This document shows, piece by piece, positions 4,419-10,529 of a DNA stretch of 32,686 nt; positions within the stretch are counted from its first letter, which is position 1, and each line of letters starts with the position of its first letter. Made by a program: the position numbers and the translations under genes. Origin of the DNA: Desulfovibrionaceae bacterium (lineage in GTDB: Bacteria > Desulfobacterota > Desulfovibrionia > Desulfovibrionales > Desulfovibrionaceae); assembly GCA_017454105.1 (NCBI GenBank), contig JAFTDR010000028.1, positions 1 through 32,686 of the forward strand, read 5' to 3'. The notes under the pieces were generated by a model, which searched no databases, was not told the origin of the DNA, and worked only from the letters and a program-made list of their open reading frames with translations.

Positions 4419-5289
4419 ATCTAGGGCACAGACGTGTCTCTTAGGTGAAGTCCCGAACAACCGAACAGCCGAACAGGGGGCCGCACTTGGTACGTTTTTA
4501 AGTTCACTGCGAAACAAGACCTTTGGCAACGCGCACATGGGGCTCGCTTCGCGTCAAGGTGAAACTGAAAGAAGGGATAGTATGAGAGTGTCTCATAGGC
4601 TGTAGCCCCACTCAATACGAATTGATGCGTATGGATGCGTATGGAAAAGACTGCAACGATCCAATAAGCAGACAGATCACCGCAAATAGAGAGGATCGGC
4701 CTGGATTTTTGCAGGCAGCCAGCATACGAGGTATGCTTGGTCCGCAATGATTCTTCCCCTGCCGATTCCTTGGGTCACTCTCCTTTGGCGTACGCGGTAG
4801 TACCTTGTGGAAGCCCTGCTACGACAGACAGTCGGTTAGGCGATGTGGCGTAAGCGCACCACACAAGAACAGTCTGTTCCTCTGTGTGTCTTCGTCGAGA
4901 TATGGTATGTCACGACCTCCCGCTTACTGCTTCGCATTTGAAGCGGGGGCTTAGCTCCAGGGTGGGCGCAGCCCCGCAGAGACACCCGTGATACCAAAAG
5001 CAAGGGATTTCTATAGGAACTTCTTATCGGGCGATGCACTCCCAGAACTGGGGGGACAAGCCTCCCGAAACTCTCAGACTGTACCCTTGTCTATGGCAAT
5101 CGTACGTATCGGTCATAACGATGTATCTTTCACGGGTGTACGATGAAATGCGCCTTCTAGCCTACTCTCCAGACATCTTGCGAGCGGCAGAATGCGGTGT
5201 TTGTCAACAATACTACGTTTGAAGAACTACAAAATCGGCGTAGTGCCGCCGCCCCGTGCGCGGATACAGTAATTTTTAGAGAGTTATCC
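4419..5289. other. Gene-poor stretch between atpC and the AAA-ATPase gene
   Basis: About 870 bp in which I find no reading frame with protein-like composition. It holds short tandem repeats (an 8-bp unit of the CCGAACAG type three times near 4453-4477; a 10-bp GATGCGTATG unit twice near 4624-4643), a small hairpin around 4700-4720 (AGCATAC/GTATGCT), and a hairpin-rich block at 4916-5010 described separately. The tail of this stretch is open in the frame of the next gene but does not look coding. Confidence 0.5.
4916..5010 (+). mobile_element. Possible remnant of an IS200/IS605-type element end (hairpin cluster)
   Basis: Two interlocking stems are visible. CTCCCGCTT (4917-4925) pairs with AAGCGGGGG (4941-4949, one G-T pair), and the GGGGCT on the 3' side of that stem can also pair with AGCCCC at about 4970-4975. 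A further GGGTG/CACCC pairing encloses the second block. A CTCCCGCTT / AAGCGGGGGCTT hairpin like this is, from memory, typical of the right ends of IS200/IS605 elements and their omega-RNA. No tnpA or tnpB gene or fragment can be read nearby, so at best this is a decayed end. It could also be an unrelated structured RNA. Confidence 0.28.
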
Positions 5290-6846
5290 ATGCAAGAGTT
5301 GCCAATTGGAGTCCACGATTTTTTCATGATACGCGGCGACAATTTGCTCTATGTCGACAAAACAAGGCGTCTTCTTGATCTTATAGAGAGAGGGCGCCGC
5401 TATTTTTTGGCAAGGCCAAGGCGTTTTGGCAAGTCCCTGACGCTGACTACGCTTGAAGCAATGTTTTTGGGGAAGGCCTCCTATTTCAGAGGCCTTGAGG
5501 CTGAAAAGTGGGTTTCAGAACATGCCCAAAGCCCTTCTCCAGTGCTTAGGATTGACATGAGTCTCCTTTCCACACCGAAGGACGAGAGGGAATTTCATGA
5601 TGCAATGAATCAGATTCTTCAGTTTTCAGCAGATAGGCCTCTTGCTTTTGAAAAAGACTGCTCTCTAACATTTGCCAATCTTATTAGAAAAATATATCAA
5701 GAATCCGGCAGTGTTGTTGTTTTGATTGACGAGTATGATTCACTTATTCTTGCGAATATAGATGATACATCTTGCGCAAATTCCATGAGGCTTTTATTGT
5801 GTCCTTTCTATATGACACTCAAGGCATTGGATAGATATCTCCGATTTGTCTTTATAACTGGTATTTCTAAATTCAGTAAGGTCGGCGTTTTTTCGGCCAT
5901 GAATAATCTTCAGGATATTTCCTTGAGTGAAAAGTATGTCGATATTGTCGGGTATACTCAGCAAGAACTCGAGATGAATTTTTCTGAATATATTCAATCT
6001 ATTGCTGCGAAAAAAAGTTGGACACAGTTTTCCTTGTCTGACACAATTAAAATGTACTATGACGGTTTTTCTTTTGATGGGAAAACAAGAGTTTATAATC
6101 CGTATTCACTTCTTACTTTTTTTTCGAGCGGGGAAATAGCAAATTATTGGTATGAGTCTGGATCGCCTACCTTTATTGTGAACTGGATGAGGAAAAACGG
6201 AATTGATGCACCAGATGAGTACAGCGGCATAGAGGTTGGGCTTGATTTCACAAGTTCGTTTGAGATTGAAAATGCGAAACCCTATAATTTGTTGTACCAA
6301 AGCGGTTATCTGACACTTCGTAAAAAGGAGGGCAATCTCTACACTTTAGATTATCCGAACAAAGAAGTCCTTGACTCTCTTTCCGCACTCTATCTTGAGT
6401 GTGTGTACCGCGTATCCTCCTTTGCCTCTCTCGGTGCTGATCTCTGGCGGGCTCTTTTGTCCTGCGATCTCACGCGTCTTGTCGCACTTTTTTCCCAGGC
6501 CCTTTCGTCGATTCCGTATGAGGACTTTAAAAATCGTGACGAGTACTGGTATCGCTCACTCTTTCTTATGCTTTTGCGTGGTGCTGGTATTCTTGTTTTT
6601 TTCGAGGTACACTGTGCAAAAGGAAGAAGTGACCTTATTCTTGTCACAGGCAAAGCCTACTACGTATTTGAATTTAAACGCAGTCCTAATGCGGCAGGCG
6701 TCGAGCGCGCAGCAAGGCTTGGTACGCGACAGATCCGCGCACGTGACTATGCCGGAATTGTTGTAAACCGGGGGCTGCCTTGCGTGATGGCGGTGCTTGT
6801 TGCCTGCGATTGCGATAGGACCGTCTCTCTGCATACCGTTGAATAG
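5290..6846 (+). CDS. AAA-ATPase-like protein with C-terminal PD-(D/E)XK nuclease domain
   Basis: 518 residues, matching the AAA-ATPase-like plus DUF1703 (PD-(D/E)XK superfamily) architecture common in gut and host-associated bacteria. After an N-terminal YVDKT motif it shows a Walker A-like PRRFGKSLT (43-51), a Walker B VVVLIDEYD (142-150) and a sensor-like FITGISKFSK (188-197). The C-terminal nuclease core has D448, E461 and K463 in the D-x12-ExK pattern (SDLIL ... FEFKR). All key residues are kept, so it is probably functional, but the role is unknown. The ATG at 5290 gives the conserved start MQELPIGVHDFF; the frame is open 31 codons further upstream without protein character. Codons are AT-richer than in neighbouring genes, especially at 5640-6320, which suggests horizontal acquisition. 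Confidence 0.85.
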   Translation: MQELPIGVHDFFMIRGDNLLYVDKTRRLLDLIERGRRYFLARPRRFGKSLTLTTLEAMFLGKASYFRGLEAEKWVSEHAQSPSPVLRIDMSLLSTPKDEREFHDAMNQILQFSADRPLAFEKDCSLTFANLIRKIYQESGSVVVLIDEYDSLILANIDDTSCANSMRLLLCPFYMTLKALDRYLRFVFITGISKFSKVGVFSAMNNLQDISLSEKYVDIVGYTQQELEMNFSEYIQSIAAKKSWTQFSLSDTIKMYYDGFSFDGKTRVYNPYSLLTFFSSGEIANYWYESGSPTFIVNWMRKNGIDAPDEYSGIEVGLDFTSSFEIENAKPYNLLYQSGYLTLRKKEGNLYTLDYPNKEVLDSLSALYLECVYRVSSFASLGADLWRALLSCDLTRLVALFSQALSSIPYEDFKNRDEYWYRSLFLMLLRGAGILVFFEVHCAKGRSDLILVTGKAYYVFEFKRSPNAAGVERAARLGTRQIRARDYAGIVVNRGLPCVMAVLVACDCDRTVSLHTVE

Positions 6847-7151: not shown

Positions 7152-8303
7152 TTAAGATTTGAAAGGCGAGAGTTTGCGCAGGGTTTCTATAATGCCTGGG
7201 AGCGTTTCGAGAACTTTGGTTATCTCCTCGTCCTTTGTGTAGCGCGAAAGGGAAAAGCGAACTGAACCGTGGGCAAAGCTTTGGGGGACGTGCATTGCAC
7301 CAAGAACATGGCTTGGCTCAAGGCTGCCCGAGGTACAGGCCGAGCCTGAACTCGCGCATATGCCGTAGCGATCGAGCATAAGGAGAATCGCTTCGCCCTC
7401 GACGTTTTTAAAAGATATATTGCTCGTGTTTGGGAGCCTGTGTGCGCGGTCGCCGTTTACGCGGCTGTTTGGTATACGCTCAAGGAGCGTCTGTTCCAGA
7501 CGATCCCGCAGGATGCGCACATTGTCTTCAGCACGAACGCTCTCTTGCGCGAGTCTACAGGCTGCGCCGAGAGCGACAATCGATGCCGTATTCTCTGTCC
7601 CTGCGCGCCGTCCGCGTTCCTGATGGCCGCCGCGAATTAAGGGGCGGAAGAGCAGTCCCTTGCGGATGTAGAGCCCGCCTATACCCTTCGGCGCGTGGAG
7701 CTTGTGGCCTGAGAAGGAGAGCATGTCAACTGGCAGGCTTTTTGTGTCAATCGGGATTTTGCCTGCCGCCTGCACGGCGTCTGTGTGGAAGAGTATCCCT
7801 TTGTCCTTTGCCATGCGCGCGAGCGTGTCTATGGGGAAGAGAGTGCCTGTCTCGTTATTCGCAAACATTATGGAGACAAGAGCCGTGTCAGGGGTGAGGG
7901 CCTGGGCGTAGAGGTCGAGATCGAGTCGTCCTTCATCGTCCACCGGGATCTTGGTTACATGGTAGCCTTTGCTTTCGTAGAAACGCGCGCAGTTGAGTAT
8001 GGCTGGGTGTTCGACACTGCTCACAACAAGATGCTTTTTTTCCGGCTGAAGCTCGGTTGCCGTGAAAAAGGCGCTGTTGTCGGACTCTGTGCCGCAGGAG
8101 GTGATCAGTATCTCCTCGGGAAGGGCGCCGAATAGGGCTGCGATCTCCTCGCGGGCGGAGGCTATTTTCTTACCGACCTCACCGCCGAAGGAGTACATGC
8201 TTGAAGGATTGCCGTAGAACTTGGTCAGATACGGCTGCATGGCCTCGTAGACTTCCGGCGCGATGGCTGTTGTCGCGTTGTTGTCAAGATAGATTACGTC
8301 CAT
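7152..8303 (-). CDS. nifS: Cysteine desulfurase NifS
   Basis: PLP enzyme that takes sulfur from cysteine and passes it as persulfide to the NifU scaffold. 383 residues from the ATG at 8303 (MDVIYLDNNATTAI, the family start). The longer open frame upstream is only the overlapping end of nifU in another frame. Lys201 in SFSGHK is the PLP lysine, and Cys323 in SSGSACTSGS is the persulfide cysteine. The loop around Cys323 is of the class I (NifS/IscS) type. The start lies one base after the stop of the upstream rrf2-nifU frame, so the two are surely cotranscribed. It is the last gene of the metA-nifU-nifS operon. Confidence 0.96.
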   Translation of the reverse strand: MDVIYLDNNATTAIAPEVYEAMQPYLTKFYGNPSSMYSFGGEVGKKIASAREEIAALFGALPEEILITSCGTESDNSAFFTATELQPEKKHLVVSSVEHPAILNCARFYESKGYHVTKIPVDDEGRLDLDLYAQALTPDTALVSIMFANNETGTLFPIDTLARMAKDKGILFHTDAVQAAGKIPIDTKSLPVDMLSFSGHKLHAPKGIGGLYIRKGLLFRPLIRGGHQERGRRAGTENTASIVALGAACRLAQESVRAEDNVRILRDRLEQTLLERIPNSRVNGDRAHRLPNTSNISFKNVEGEAILLMLDRYGICASSGSACTSGSLEPSHVLGAMHVPQSFAHGSVRFSLSRYTKDEEITKVLETLPGIIETLRKLSPFKS

Positions 8304-8304
8304 C

Positions 8305-9522
8305 TCAGACCTCCAGAACGCAGAGAGTCGGCTCGACCTTCTTGCGCAGTAGTGCTTCAATGTCCGCCCTGAGTGTTTGGGGCACAGTGCCAGTGAAGGA
8401 CAGGCTGACACTGTTTCCATCGACCTCGATAAGCTCAACGCTTGCCCCATGGGGAAGAGTGGGCGAAATGTCACTGTCAAGGAGTTTCATGACTGCCCGC
8501 ATGCGCTGGACATTGGTGAGCTTAGGCGCGCTTTTTTTCTTTTGCGCAACGTTGAGTTCAGAGGCGAGTATCTCGGCGATAGTGTCCCTGCATTCTCCAC
8601 AGGCACCGCCGGCCTTGGTATAGTCTGTGACAGCCTCAACGCTTGTGAGCCCATTCTCCCGTATGGCCCGGACTATCTGCGCGTCGGTTATGCCAAAGCA
8701 CTTACAGACGAGCTTGCCGATTTCCTGGGCGTGCGGCACGGCTTTTTCCCCGCGCCAGTTTCTGAGAGCCGCCTCAAGGGCCTCCTGGCCCATGACGGAA
8801 CAGTGCATTTTTTCTCTGGGAAGGCCGCCCAGTTTTTCGACGATGTCCTTGTTTGTGATCGCGCTAGCCGCATCGACATGCATGCCGATCACCATGTCTG
8901 TCAGCACGGAGCTTGAGGCAATGGCGCTCGCACAGCCGAATGTCTCAAAGCCTGCGTCCTCGATAATGCCGTCCTTCGAGATTTTAAGGTACAGACGGAG
9001 CGCATCGCCACAGGCGAGGCTTCCGACCTCGCCGATTGCGTTGGCGTCGGCTATGGGGCCGGCATGGTGGGGATTGAGAAAGTGATCGTGGACAGCCTGC
9101 GTGTAGTCCCACATAGGTGCTTTCCTTGTGCTGCGCGCGAGCAGACTCTTAAGGTTTGTCGCGCGCAGATAGCGGTTAAGGTAGGCGTCAAAATCCTCCC
9201 AGAAGAGCCGCGCCGCGCATTGGGCGCTGCGCTCGCAGGGAGTGTCAAGACAGGGGACAAGAGTGCGTGTCCCCTCAAGTTTCAGGAGAATTGTGTCAAG
9301 CGGGATTGTGGCGGGATTTTGGATAAGCGTGTAGCCGCCTCCGCTGCCGCGGATCGAGCGGAAGAGCTTTAAGGGGCGGAGAATGCCGACAATTTGCTCA
9401 AGATAGCCGACTGATATGCCTTCCTCGCTCGCCACCTCGCGCAATGTCAGCGTTTCGGGAAATCGCTCGGCCAGGCGGAGGAGAAAACGCAGACCGTAGC
9501 GAGAGCGTGTTGAGAAATGCAT
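8305..9522 (-). CDS. nifU: Fusion of Rrf2-family regulator and NifU Fe-S scaffold
   Basis: One uninterrupted frame of 405 residues with four parts. Residues 1-135 are an Rrf2 (IscR-like) winged-helix regulator (MHFSTRSRYGLRFLLRLA, GISVGYLEQIV, RGSGGGYTL) with cysteines 91, 96 and 102 (CX4CX5C), the pattern that binds [2Fe-2S] in this family. From 137 (MWDYTQAV) the protein is NifU: an IscU-like scaffold with C171 (ACGD), C197 (FGCAS) and C241 (HCSVMG), then a BFD-like [2Fe-2S] domain with C273/C275 and C308/C311. Residues about 337-405 form an Nfu-like domain without the usual CXXC. AAGGA lies 8 nt before codon 137 (position 9114), so NifU alone may also be made. GAGGCGG overlapping the metA stop serves the full-length start. 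Probable role: Fe-S cluster assembly with self-regulation. Confidence 0.92.
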   Translation of the reverse strand: MHFSTRSRYGLRFLLRLAERFPETLTLREVASEEGISVGYLEQIVGILRPLKLFRSIRGSGGGYTLIQNPATIPLDTILLKLEGTRTLVPCLDTPCERSAQCAARLFWEDFDAYLNRYLRATNLKSLLARSTRKAPMWDYTQAVHDHFLNPHHAGPIADANAIGEVGSLACGDALRLYLKISKDGIIEDAGFETFGCASAIASSSVLTDMVIGMHVDAASAITNKDIVEKLGGLPREKMHCSVMGQEALEAALRNWRGEKAVPHAQEIGKLVCKCFGITDAQIVRAIRENGLTSVEAVTDYTKAGGACGECRDTIAEILASELNVAQKKKSAPKLTNVQRMRAVMKLLDSDISPTLPHGASVELIEVDGNSVSLSFTGTVPQTLRADIEALLRKKVEPTLCVLEV

Positions 9523-9529
9523 TGCCGCC

Positions 9530-10471
9530 TCAGTTGAAGGTCGATCTGTGGCAGGTCGGAATGGCGCTCAGGCTGAAGGGTGTCTCCTGGTAGACGTAGA
9601 AATTGAGCCAGTTACTGTAGAAAAGATGGGCGTGGGCCCGCCAGTTCATGGTTGGAATGGAGCTTATGTCGCCGTCTGGGTAGTAATGTTCTGGGGGAAG
9701 GGGATCTAAGCCTCGGCCAATGTCTCTGTGGTATTCGGCATCGAGGGTATCCCGATCGTATTCAAGGTGACCTGTGATAAAGACCTGGCTGTGATCCCTG
9801 TTTTCAACAATTGTGAGTCCCGCCTCGCGCGAGGCCGCAAGAATGCGTAAGTCTGGGACGCGCAGCACGTCTTCAGAGCGGATTTCTGTTTTCCGCGAGT
9901 GGGGCGCGTAGAAAATATCGTCAAAACCGCGGAAGAGACGGCATTCGGGATGAAGGATGTGGTGTTCGTAGATGCCGCTCACTTTCCGTTCAAGGATATA
10001 TTTTGGCACGCGGAAGAAATGGTAGAGCGCCGCCTGCGCAGCCCAGCAGATGTAGAGTGTTGAGTAGACGTGCTGCTTCGCGTATTCCATGATCCTGCGC
10101 AATTCATCCCAGTAGTCGACCTCTTCGAATGGGAGATGCTCGACAGGGGCGCCTGTGACGATCATGCCGTCAAAGCTTGTGTCCGCTATGCTGTCAAAGG
10201 TTTTGTAGAAGCGCTCAAGATGCTGTGCGGGCGTGTTTTTTGATTCGTGCGCCTCTGTGCGCAGAAGGGTGATATTGACTTGAATTGGGGAATTGCCGAG
10301 GAGTCGTAAAAGCTGCGTCTCGGTCGCAATCTTTGTCGGCATGAGATTCACGATCGCGATTTCAAGGGGCCGTATGTCCTGTGTGTTTGCGCGATCGTCT
10401 GTCATGACAAAGATGTTCTCGTTCTCAAGGGCCAGTCGCGCGGGAAGATCTGTTGGAATTTTTATTGGCAT
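9530..10471 (-). CDS. metA: Homoserine O-acyltransferase MetA (predicted acetyl-CoA type)
   Basis: First committed step of methionine synthesis: activates homoserine for sulfur transfer. 313 residues, full length for the family. The catalytic Cys142 (YICWAAQAALYHF), His235 and Glu237 (ITGHLEYD) are present. Residue 111 is Glu (TGAPVEHLPFEE). In characterised MetA proteins Glu here selects acetyl-CoA and Gly selects succinyl-CoA, so O-acetylhomoserine is the predicted product, despite the common name homoserine O-succinyltransferase. GAGAGGA lies just before the ATG at 10471. First gene of the operon with rrf2-nifU (7-nt gap) and nifS. Confidence 0.95.
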   Translation of the reverse strand: MPIKIPTDLPARLALENENIFVMTDDRANTQDIRPLEIAIVNLMPTKIATETQLLRLLGNSPIQVNITLLRTEAHESKNTPAQHLERFYKTFDSIADTSFDGMIVTGAPVEHLPFEEVDYWDELRRIMEYAKQHVYSTLYICWAAQAALYHFFRVPKYILERKVSGIYEHHILHPECRLFRGFDDIFYAPHSRKTEIRSEDVLRVPDLRILAASREAGLTIVENRDHSQVFITGHLEYDRDTLDAEYHRDIGRGLDPLPPEHYYPDGDISSIPTMNWRAHAHLFYSNWLNFYVYQETPFSLSAIPTCHRSTFN

Positions 10472-10501
10472 TCTGTCCTCTCTTTCCTTATTCCACCGAA
10501 T

Positions 10502-10529
10502 ACAATAGTAATCTACTAGGTTTTGTCAA
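10502..10529 (-). promoter_or_regulatory. Predicted promoter of metA-nifU-nifS with internal palindrome
   Basis: On the minus strand TTGACA (10529-10524) is a perfect -35, followed after 16 bp by TATTGT (10507-10502). The spacer contains the palindrome TAGTA-ATC-TACTA (10506-10518), placed where a bound repressor would block RNA polymerase. The metA start lies about 30 nt downstream. Confidence 0.6.

Follow-up and report, generated by a model that had tools for sequence, protein, structure and literature searches.

In Escherichia coli, the Rrf2-type regulator IscR exerts autoregulatory feedback on iscRSUA, and its cluster ligands are C92, C98, C104 and H107 (PMC8593673). The [4Fe-4S] regulator NsrR uses three cysteines and Asp8 from the partner subunit (PMC5411485). 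Among scaffolds, the C-terminal domain of Azotobacter vinelandii NifU transiently assembles [4Fe-4S] clusters, and some deltaproteobacteria carry NifU_N-NifQ fusions (PMC11605450). Finally, an internal translation start contributes to the function of Xanthomonas HrcQ (PMC8553256). A Fe-S regulator might read cluster status by competition for the scaffold or by taking over a cluster directly, two modes that are difficult to test while regulator and scaffold are distinct proteins. Here, we describe a locus of Desulfovibrionaceae in which the two are one polypeptide. Our search of open-access papers found none that describes an Rrf2-NifU fusion.

The window, the whole stretch of 32,686 nucleotides that was analyzed, contains a rrf2::nifU gene of 405 codons on the minus strand (8305..9522), whose domains were assigned with Pfam and NCBIfam. 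A first-pass annotation, made from the letters and without mention of the strand, had described a single open frame joining an intact Rrf2 domain to a complete NifU. The frame indeed runs without a stop from 9522 to 8305, and the Rrf2 domain is intact, with its winged helix and C91, C96 and C102 (residues 4-129; 9136..9513, minus strand; PF02082, E 1.8e-25, 90 bits vs a cut-off of 30). The Rrf2 superfamily model TIGR00738 is also exceeded (88 vs 73.3 bits). A linker of 10 residues follows (residues 130-139; 9106..9135, minus strand), to which AlphaFold2 gives low confidence (mean pLDDT of 53 at residues 131-140, below 50 at 136-138). The model of the fusion (mean pLDDT 85.6, pTM 0.50) represents the domains well and the linker poorly, as would be expected of domains that are joined flexibly, and it gives no reading of their positions relative to each other. 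In the 4.26 Mb of the window genome, rated 100% complete, the fusion is the sole match to PF02082 and the sole match to PF01592. NifU need not be the sole Fe-S assembly route, because one SufB-like gene was also found in this genome.

The NifU half passes the NifU_proper model TIGR02000 of NCBIfam (298.6 vs a cut-off of 273.3 bits). It starts with the U-type scaffold domain NifU_N (residues 140-260; 8743..9105, minus strand; PF01592, 154.7 bits, E 1.7e-45), which carries C171, C197 and C241, and continues with a BFD-like [2Fe-2S] domain (residues 271-320; 8563..8712, minus strand; PF04324, 72.6 bits, E 3.3e-20), which carries C273, C275, C308 and C311. All seven NifU cysteines are thus there, and every cysteine listed in the annotation, in either half, lies at the position it was given. 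Contrary to what the annotation claimed, however, the NifU half is not complete. The CXC and CXXC motifs exist, but both lie within the BFD-like ferredoxin domain, and the CXXC of the C-terminal NifU (Nfu) domain is gone. The latter domain is still recognizable at residues 344-399 (8326..8493, minus strand), with a sub-threshold match to PF01106 (21.4 vs 27 bits); its CXXC loop is missing from the alignment, while the remaining fold is modelled with a pLDDT of about 95. We found no second PF01106 protein in the window genome and not a single one in G162, another species with the fusion, both genomes being rated 100% complete. From its domains, the fused NifU is a putative U-type scaffold that would assemble and transfer clusters.

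Our search of 79 Desulfovibrio genomes revealed the stop-free in-frame join in five species (G000, G162, G260, G262 and G265), the window locus sharing it with four others (L002, L031, L032 and L033). Among the fused species, identity to the window is 49-55% in the Rrf2 parts and 65-72% in the NifU parts. The linkers, counted after the last conserved Rrf2 motif, have 16, 18, 19, 17 and 18 codons, and thus differ by whole codons only. The chance that frame and openness survive such changes is roughly estimated at about 0.002, on the assumptions that the length changed independently three times or more and that the codons of the linker are random. The fused Rrf2 halves are monophyletic among their orthologues (support 96/97), which points to a single fusion event. 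The NifU halves group in one branch (100/99) with those of three genomes that lack rrf2 in the operon (G264, G267 and G261; L034, L035 and L036), so that the operon rrf2 is missing in three of the eight branch members. These trees would most simply be read as a single fusion, with the Rrf2 half lost later, once or more often, in some lineages. All eight members have a deletion of the C-terminal CXXC and keep the rest of the fold; unfused relatives keep the motif as CAQC or CSQC.

No fusion was found in 247 genomes of the family outside the genus, nor among 395 genomes of the phylum, 162 of them with a NifU-level match, a survey that distant, weaker fusions could escape; IMG/VR viral contigs gave no relative. 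Elsewhere, two NifU frames are open upstream for about 160 codons (L071, from a Pelotomaculum MAG) and 285 codons (L074) without any Rrf2 match; these may be further fusions or frames that are open by chance. The commonest order in the genus is metA-rrf2-nifU-nifS, and most of its other members have regulator and scaffold as mere neighbors, the arrangement that the annotation had expected. In the unfused adjacent pairs, rrf2 and nifU overlap in 33 of 54 cases, nifU is in the +1 frame relative to rrf2 in 39 of 54, and the nifU ribosome site sits within the end of rrf2. A change of frame at this overlap is enough to merge both genes. The join is a genuine fusion of known parts that has been inherited, the merger of two overlapping operon genes, and its product is, most likely, an autorepressor to which part of the NifU pool is tethered.

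The operon in which the fusion lies suggests what the regulator acts upon. Its first gene, metA, ends 7 bases upstream of the fusion (9530..10471, minus strand) and encodes a homoserine O-acyltransferase of the acetyl type (NF047918 MetA_acetyl, above cut-off). The last gene, nifS, encodes a cysteine desulfurase (7152..8303, minus strand; TIGR03402 FeS_nifS, above cut-off), and its ATG comes 1 base past the fusion stop. Just past nifS, and convergent with the operon, a predicted AAA-ATPase with a PD-(D/E)XK nuclease domain occupies 5197-6846 on the plus strand (PF09820, PF08011). Upstream of metA, we identified a putative 25-bp palindromic operator, AAAACCTAG-N7-CTATTGTAT (10500..10524, minus strand; 22.9 bits), the single match in the window at up to 3 mismatches. 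It overlaps a sigma-70-like promoter, TTGACA-16-TATTGT, proposed by consensus only (10502..10529, minus strand; 10 of 12 matches), a TTGACA promoter that the palindrome AAAACATAG-N7-CTATGTTTT lies across. The operator is present in 43 of 50 unfused operons, the source of the training set. The matrix, trained on unfused relatives only, gives 15.0-28.0 bits in all five fused operons, which are outside the training, and at most 13.95 bits in 1360 upstream regions randomized by simple base shuffling. Operons without an adjacent rrf2 have the operator in 2 of 13 cases, these being G264 and G267 of the fused branch, and the difference from 5/5 has a hypergeometric probability of C(13,2)/C(18,7) = 0.0025, which is optimistic given the relatedness of the genomes.

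This co-occurrence of operator and rrf2 supports repression of the operon by the fused Rrf2 and, since none of the five fusions has lost the operator, the Rrf2 half very probably still acts on its own operon. A larger regulon is not apparent in the window genome, where operator-like matches number 5 vs 4 in reversed-pattern controls. Rfam found nothing in the window, and thus no known riboswitch precedes metA. The operator-like sites of G264 and G267 are perhaps relics. We considered that the cognate Rrf2 had been relocated in these two genomes, but the Rrf2 proteins remaining there are distant paralogues, and a weakly similar stretch upstream of their nifU is not a remnant of Rrf2 but the end of metA. 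Another regulatory arrangement perhaps exists at six loci of the genus (L211-L216, in G203, G282, G249, G287, G240 and G269) where rrf2 is adjacent, metA lacks an upstream operator, and NifU has 298-302 residues.

The fusion might also be a chance, near-neutral event, with halves that work independently, a tether devoid of regulatory meaning, and an Rrf2 on its way out. Adjacent genes fuse easily. Beyond the three branch members, others in the genus lack the operon rrf2, and evolution of the fused Rrf2 halves is fast, with branches as long as 1.46. The tether is also dispensable, because the relatives of the same branch that lack the operon rrf2 keep nifU behind metA. Against this, all five fused operons retain the operator, the winged helix and the three cysteines persist, and five divergent species have kept the frame, and kept it open, despite changes in linker length. 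We regard this explanation as unlikely.

The autorepressor that we favor would be tethered to only part of the NifU pool if the merged gene still allows nifU to be translated by itself. Codon 137 of the fusion is an ATG (9112..9114, minus strand) that aligns with the start of unfused nifU, and each of the five fusions retains this ancestral start at its junction. The window copy is preceded at normal spacing by AAGGA, a possible internal Shine-Dalgarno sequence for free NifU (9123..9127, minus strand), with a duplex energy of -5.4 kcal/mol, weaker than the corresponding site of any other fusion. The other four have energies of -9.3 to -11.7 kcal/mol, vs a median of -9.5 for unfused nifU and of -2.4 for the background of internal ATGs. 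Internal ATGs with sites as strong make up less than 0.5% of those in the same operons for these four fusions, and about 9-12% for the window. Since four of the five fusions have a strong internal ribosome site and an ATG, free NifU is likely made in these species too; it is possible in the window species. Moreover, the three rrf2-less relatives of the branch have nifU directly behind metA with its own ribosome site, so the nifU start can serve alone. On these sequence features, the fusion gene probably yields both Rrf2-NifU and free NifU.

These features bear on the proposal of the annotation, in which the scaffold exists only in tethered form. As a full explanation, this would make the fused chain the sole form, with NifU passing its cluster directly to the Rrf2 of the same dimer, so that scaffold load is read out in DNA binding. 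The weak internal ribosome site of the window species, the presence of a single Rrf2 and a single NifU_N in its genome, and the frame kept over large divergence would all suit such a load sensor. However, ATG137 and a normally spaced AAGGA remain even there, and the strong internal start of the other four fusions fits poorly with a scaffold that is never free; we find this explanation quite improbable. A variant that does accommodate free NifU has the cluster occupancy of NifU control DNA binding by Rrf2 in the same dimer, with the ratio of fused to free protein tuning the sensor. We doubt this self-reporting scaffold to a similar degree. If true, the internal ribosome site would set the proportions of the two forms, and the loss of the C-terminal site would leave those of NifU_N and Rrf2 as the sole cluster docks. 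Direct reporting is an attractive idea, and one of several options.

The explanation that we prefer is a two-product autorepressor with IscR-like feedback and an Rrf2 anchored to the scaffold, and we hold it, taken as a whole, with a little better than even confidence. The merged gene would make the Rrf2-NifU chain and, by internal initiation, free NifU. The Rrf2 half would dimerize, bind the palindrome that overlaps the metA promoter, and repress the operon. Free and fused NifU would mix to form the U-type scaffold of the cell, together with NifS. When NifU carries spare clusters, the three-cysteine site of Rrf2 would be filled and repression would tighten; when demand drains the clusters, repression would relax. 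The net effect would be feedback like that of IscR, by a regulator that is held on its scaffold. Of this explanation, we are least sure of the step that depends on the cluster.

The three cysteines of the Rrf2 half are kept, with Fe-S-type spacing, in all five fusions and in the aligned unfused orthologues. The position of the fourth IscR ligand (His107) is not conserved across the five fusions (R, R, R, K and H), and neither is that of NsrR Asp8 (R in the window, R or S in the other fusions). We infer cluster sensing from the three cysteines, because no fourth ligand of the IscR or NsrR type is conserved, and a Fe-S cluster on the Rrf2 half is plausible. The main alternative is a sulfur signal: the Rrf2 half would read cysteine, sulfide or a CymR-like signal instead of Fe-S status, and its coupling to NifU would reflect the use of sulfur common to metA and nifS, a reading that we consider, as a whole, very unlikely. 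The operon does begin with an acetyl-type metA and end with a cysteine desulfurase, and CymR ranks with the better matches both to solved structures and to NCBIfam models. But the Fe-S-type spacing of the cysteines argues otherwise, and the fusion is far below the cut-offs of both the CymR model (NF047409, 78.1 vs 195 bits) and the IscR equivalog (TIGR02010, 69.6 vs 207.55 bits). TAL-effector matches in the PDB list are probably noise caused by repeat composition.

In one fused species, G162, a copy of the operator with 31.4 bits lies upstream of metY (contig C17; L155:1501-1525, the ORF starting at 1812), which we take, from reading its sequence and without a family search, to encode O-acetylhomoserine sulfhydrylase. 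Together with an acetyl-type metA at the head of the operon, this site would suit a sulfur signal too. Of eight close metY loci tested, that of G162 alone had a strong site, those of G137 and G190 having a weak one at best, and the window genome has no comparable operator at metY. We thus rejected the notion of a genus-wide operator upstream of this gene.

Finally, an artefact in which a lost stop or a frameshift joins two separate genes might be feared from a draft assembly of 341 contigs and from genes that are adjacent in unfused relatives, where one indel could join them, but it can safely be set aside, because the in-frame join recurs in four other independent genomes with linkers of different sequence and length. 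The view of the annotation that no stop or frameshift divides Rrf2 from NifU, and that the join is a true fusion, thus holds across five species. The fusion is an intermediate of gene merger that apparently keeps both old starts. As a natural fusion with an internal start, and the sole Rrf2 and sole NifU_N of its genome, it offers a ready test of cluster readout.

Compared with the systems described above, rrf2::nifU would share with HrcQ the use of an internal start within one gene (PMC8553256); the proteins are unrelated, and internal initiation in rrf2::nifU is deduced from sequence alone. It resembles NifU of the Azotobacter type in having NifU_N, the BFD ferredoxin and the C-terminal domain in this order, and in passing TIGR02000, and differs from it by the N-terminal Rrf2 and by the absence of the C-terminal CXXC. 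As in E. coli, where iscRSUA is autoregulated, a Rrf2 gene stands beside a U-type scaffold and a cysteine desulfurase (PMC8593673), and the fused Rrf2 has three cysteines in the expected region. Yet, IscR and its scaffold are separate proteins, the His107 ligand is not conserved in the fusions, and the fused operon starts with metA and has NifU in place of IscU. Like the NifU_N-NifQ fusions (PMC11605450), rrf2::nifU places a U-type scaffold domain in one chain with the protein it would serve. The two differ in the partner, which in NifU_N-NifQ is a client that takes clusters for cofactor synthesis and in rrf2::nifU is a regulator that binds DNA, and in the order of the domains, which is reversed.
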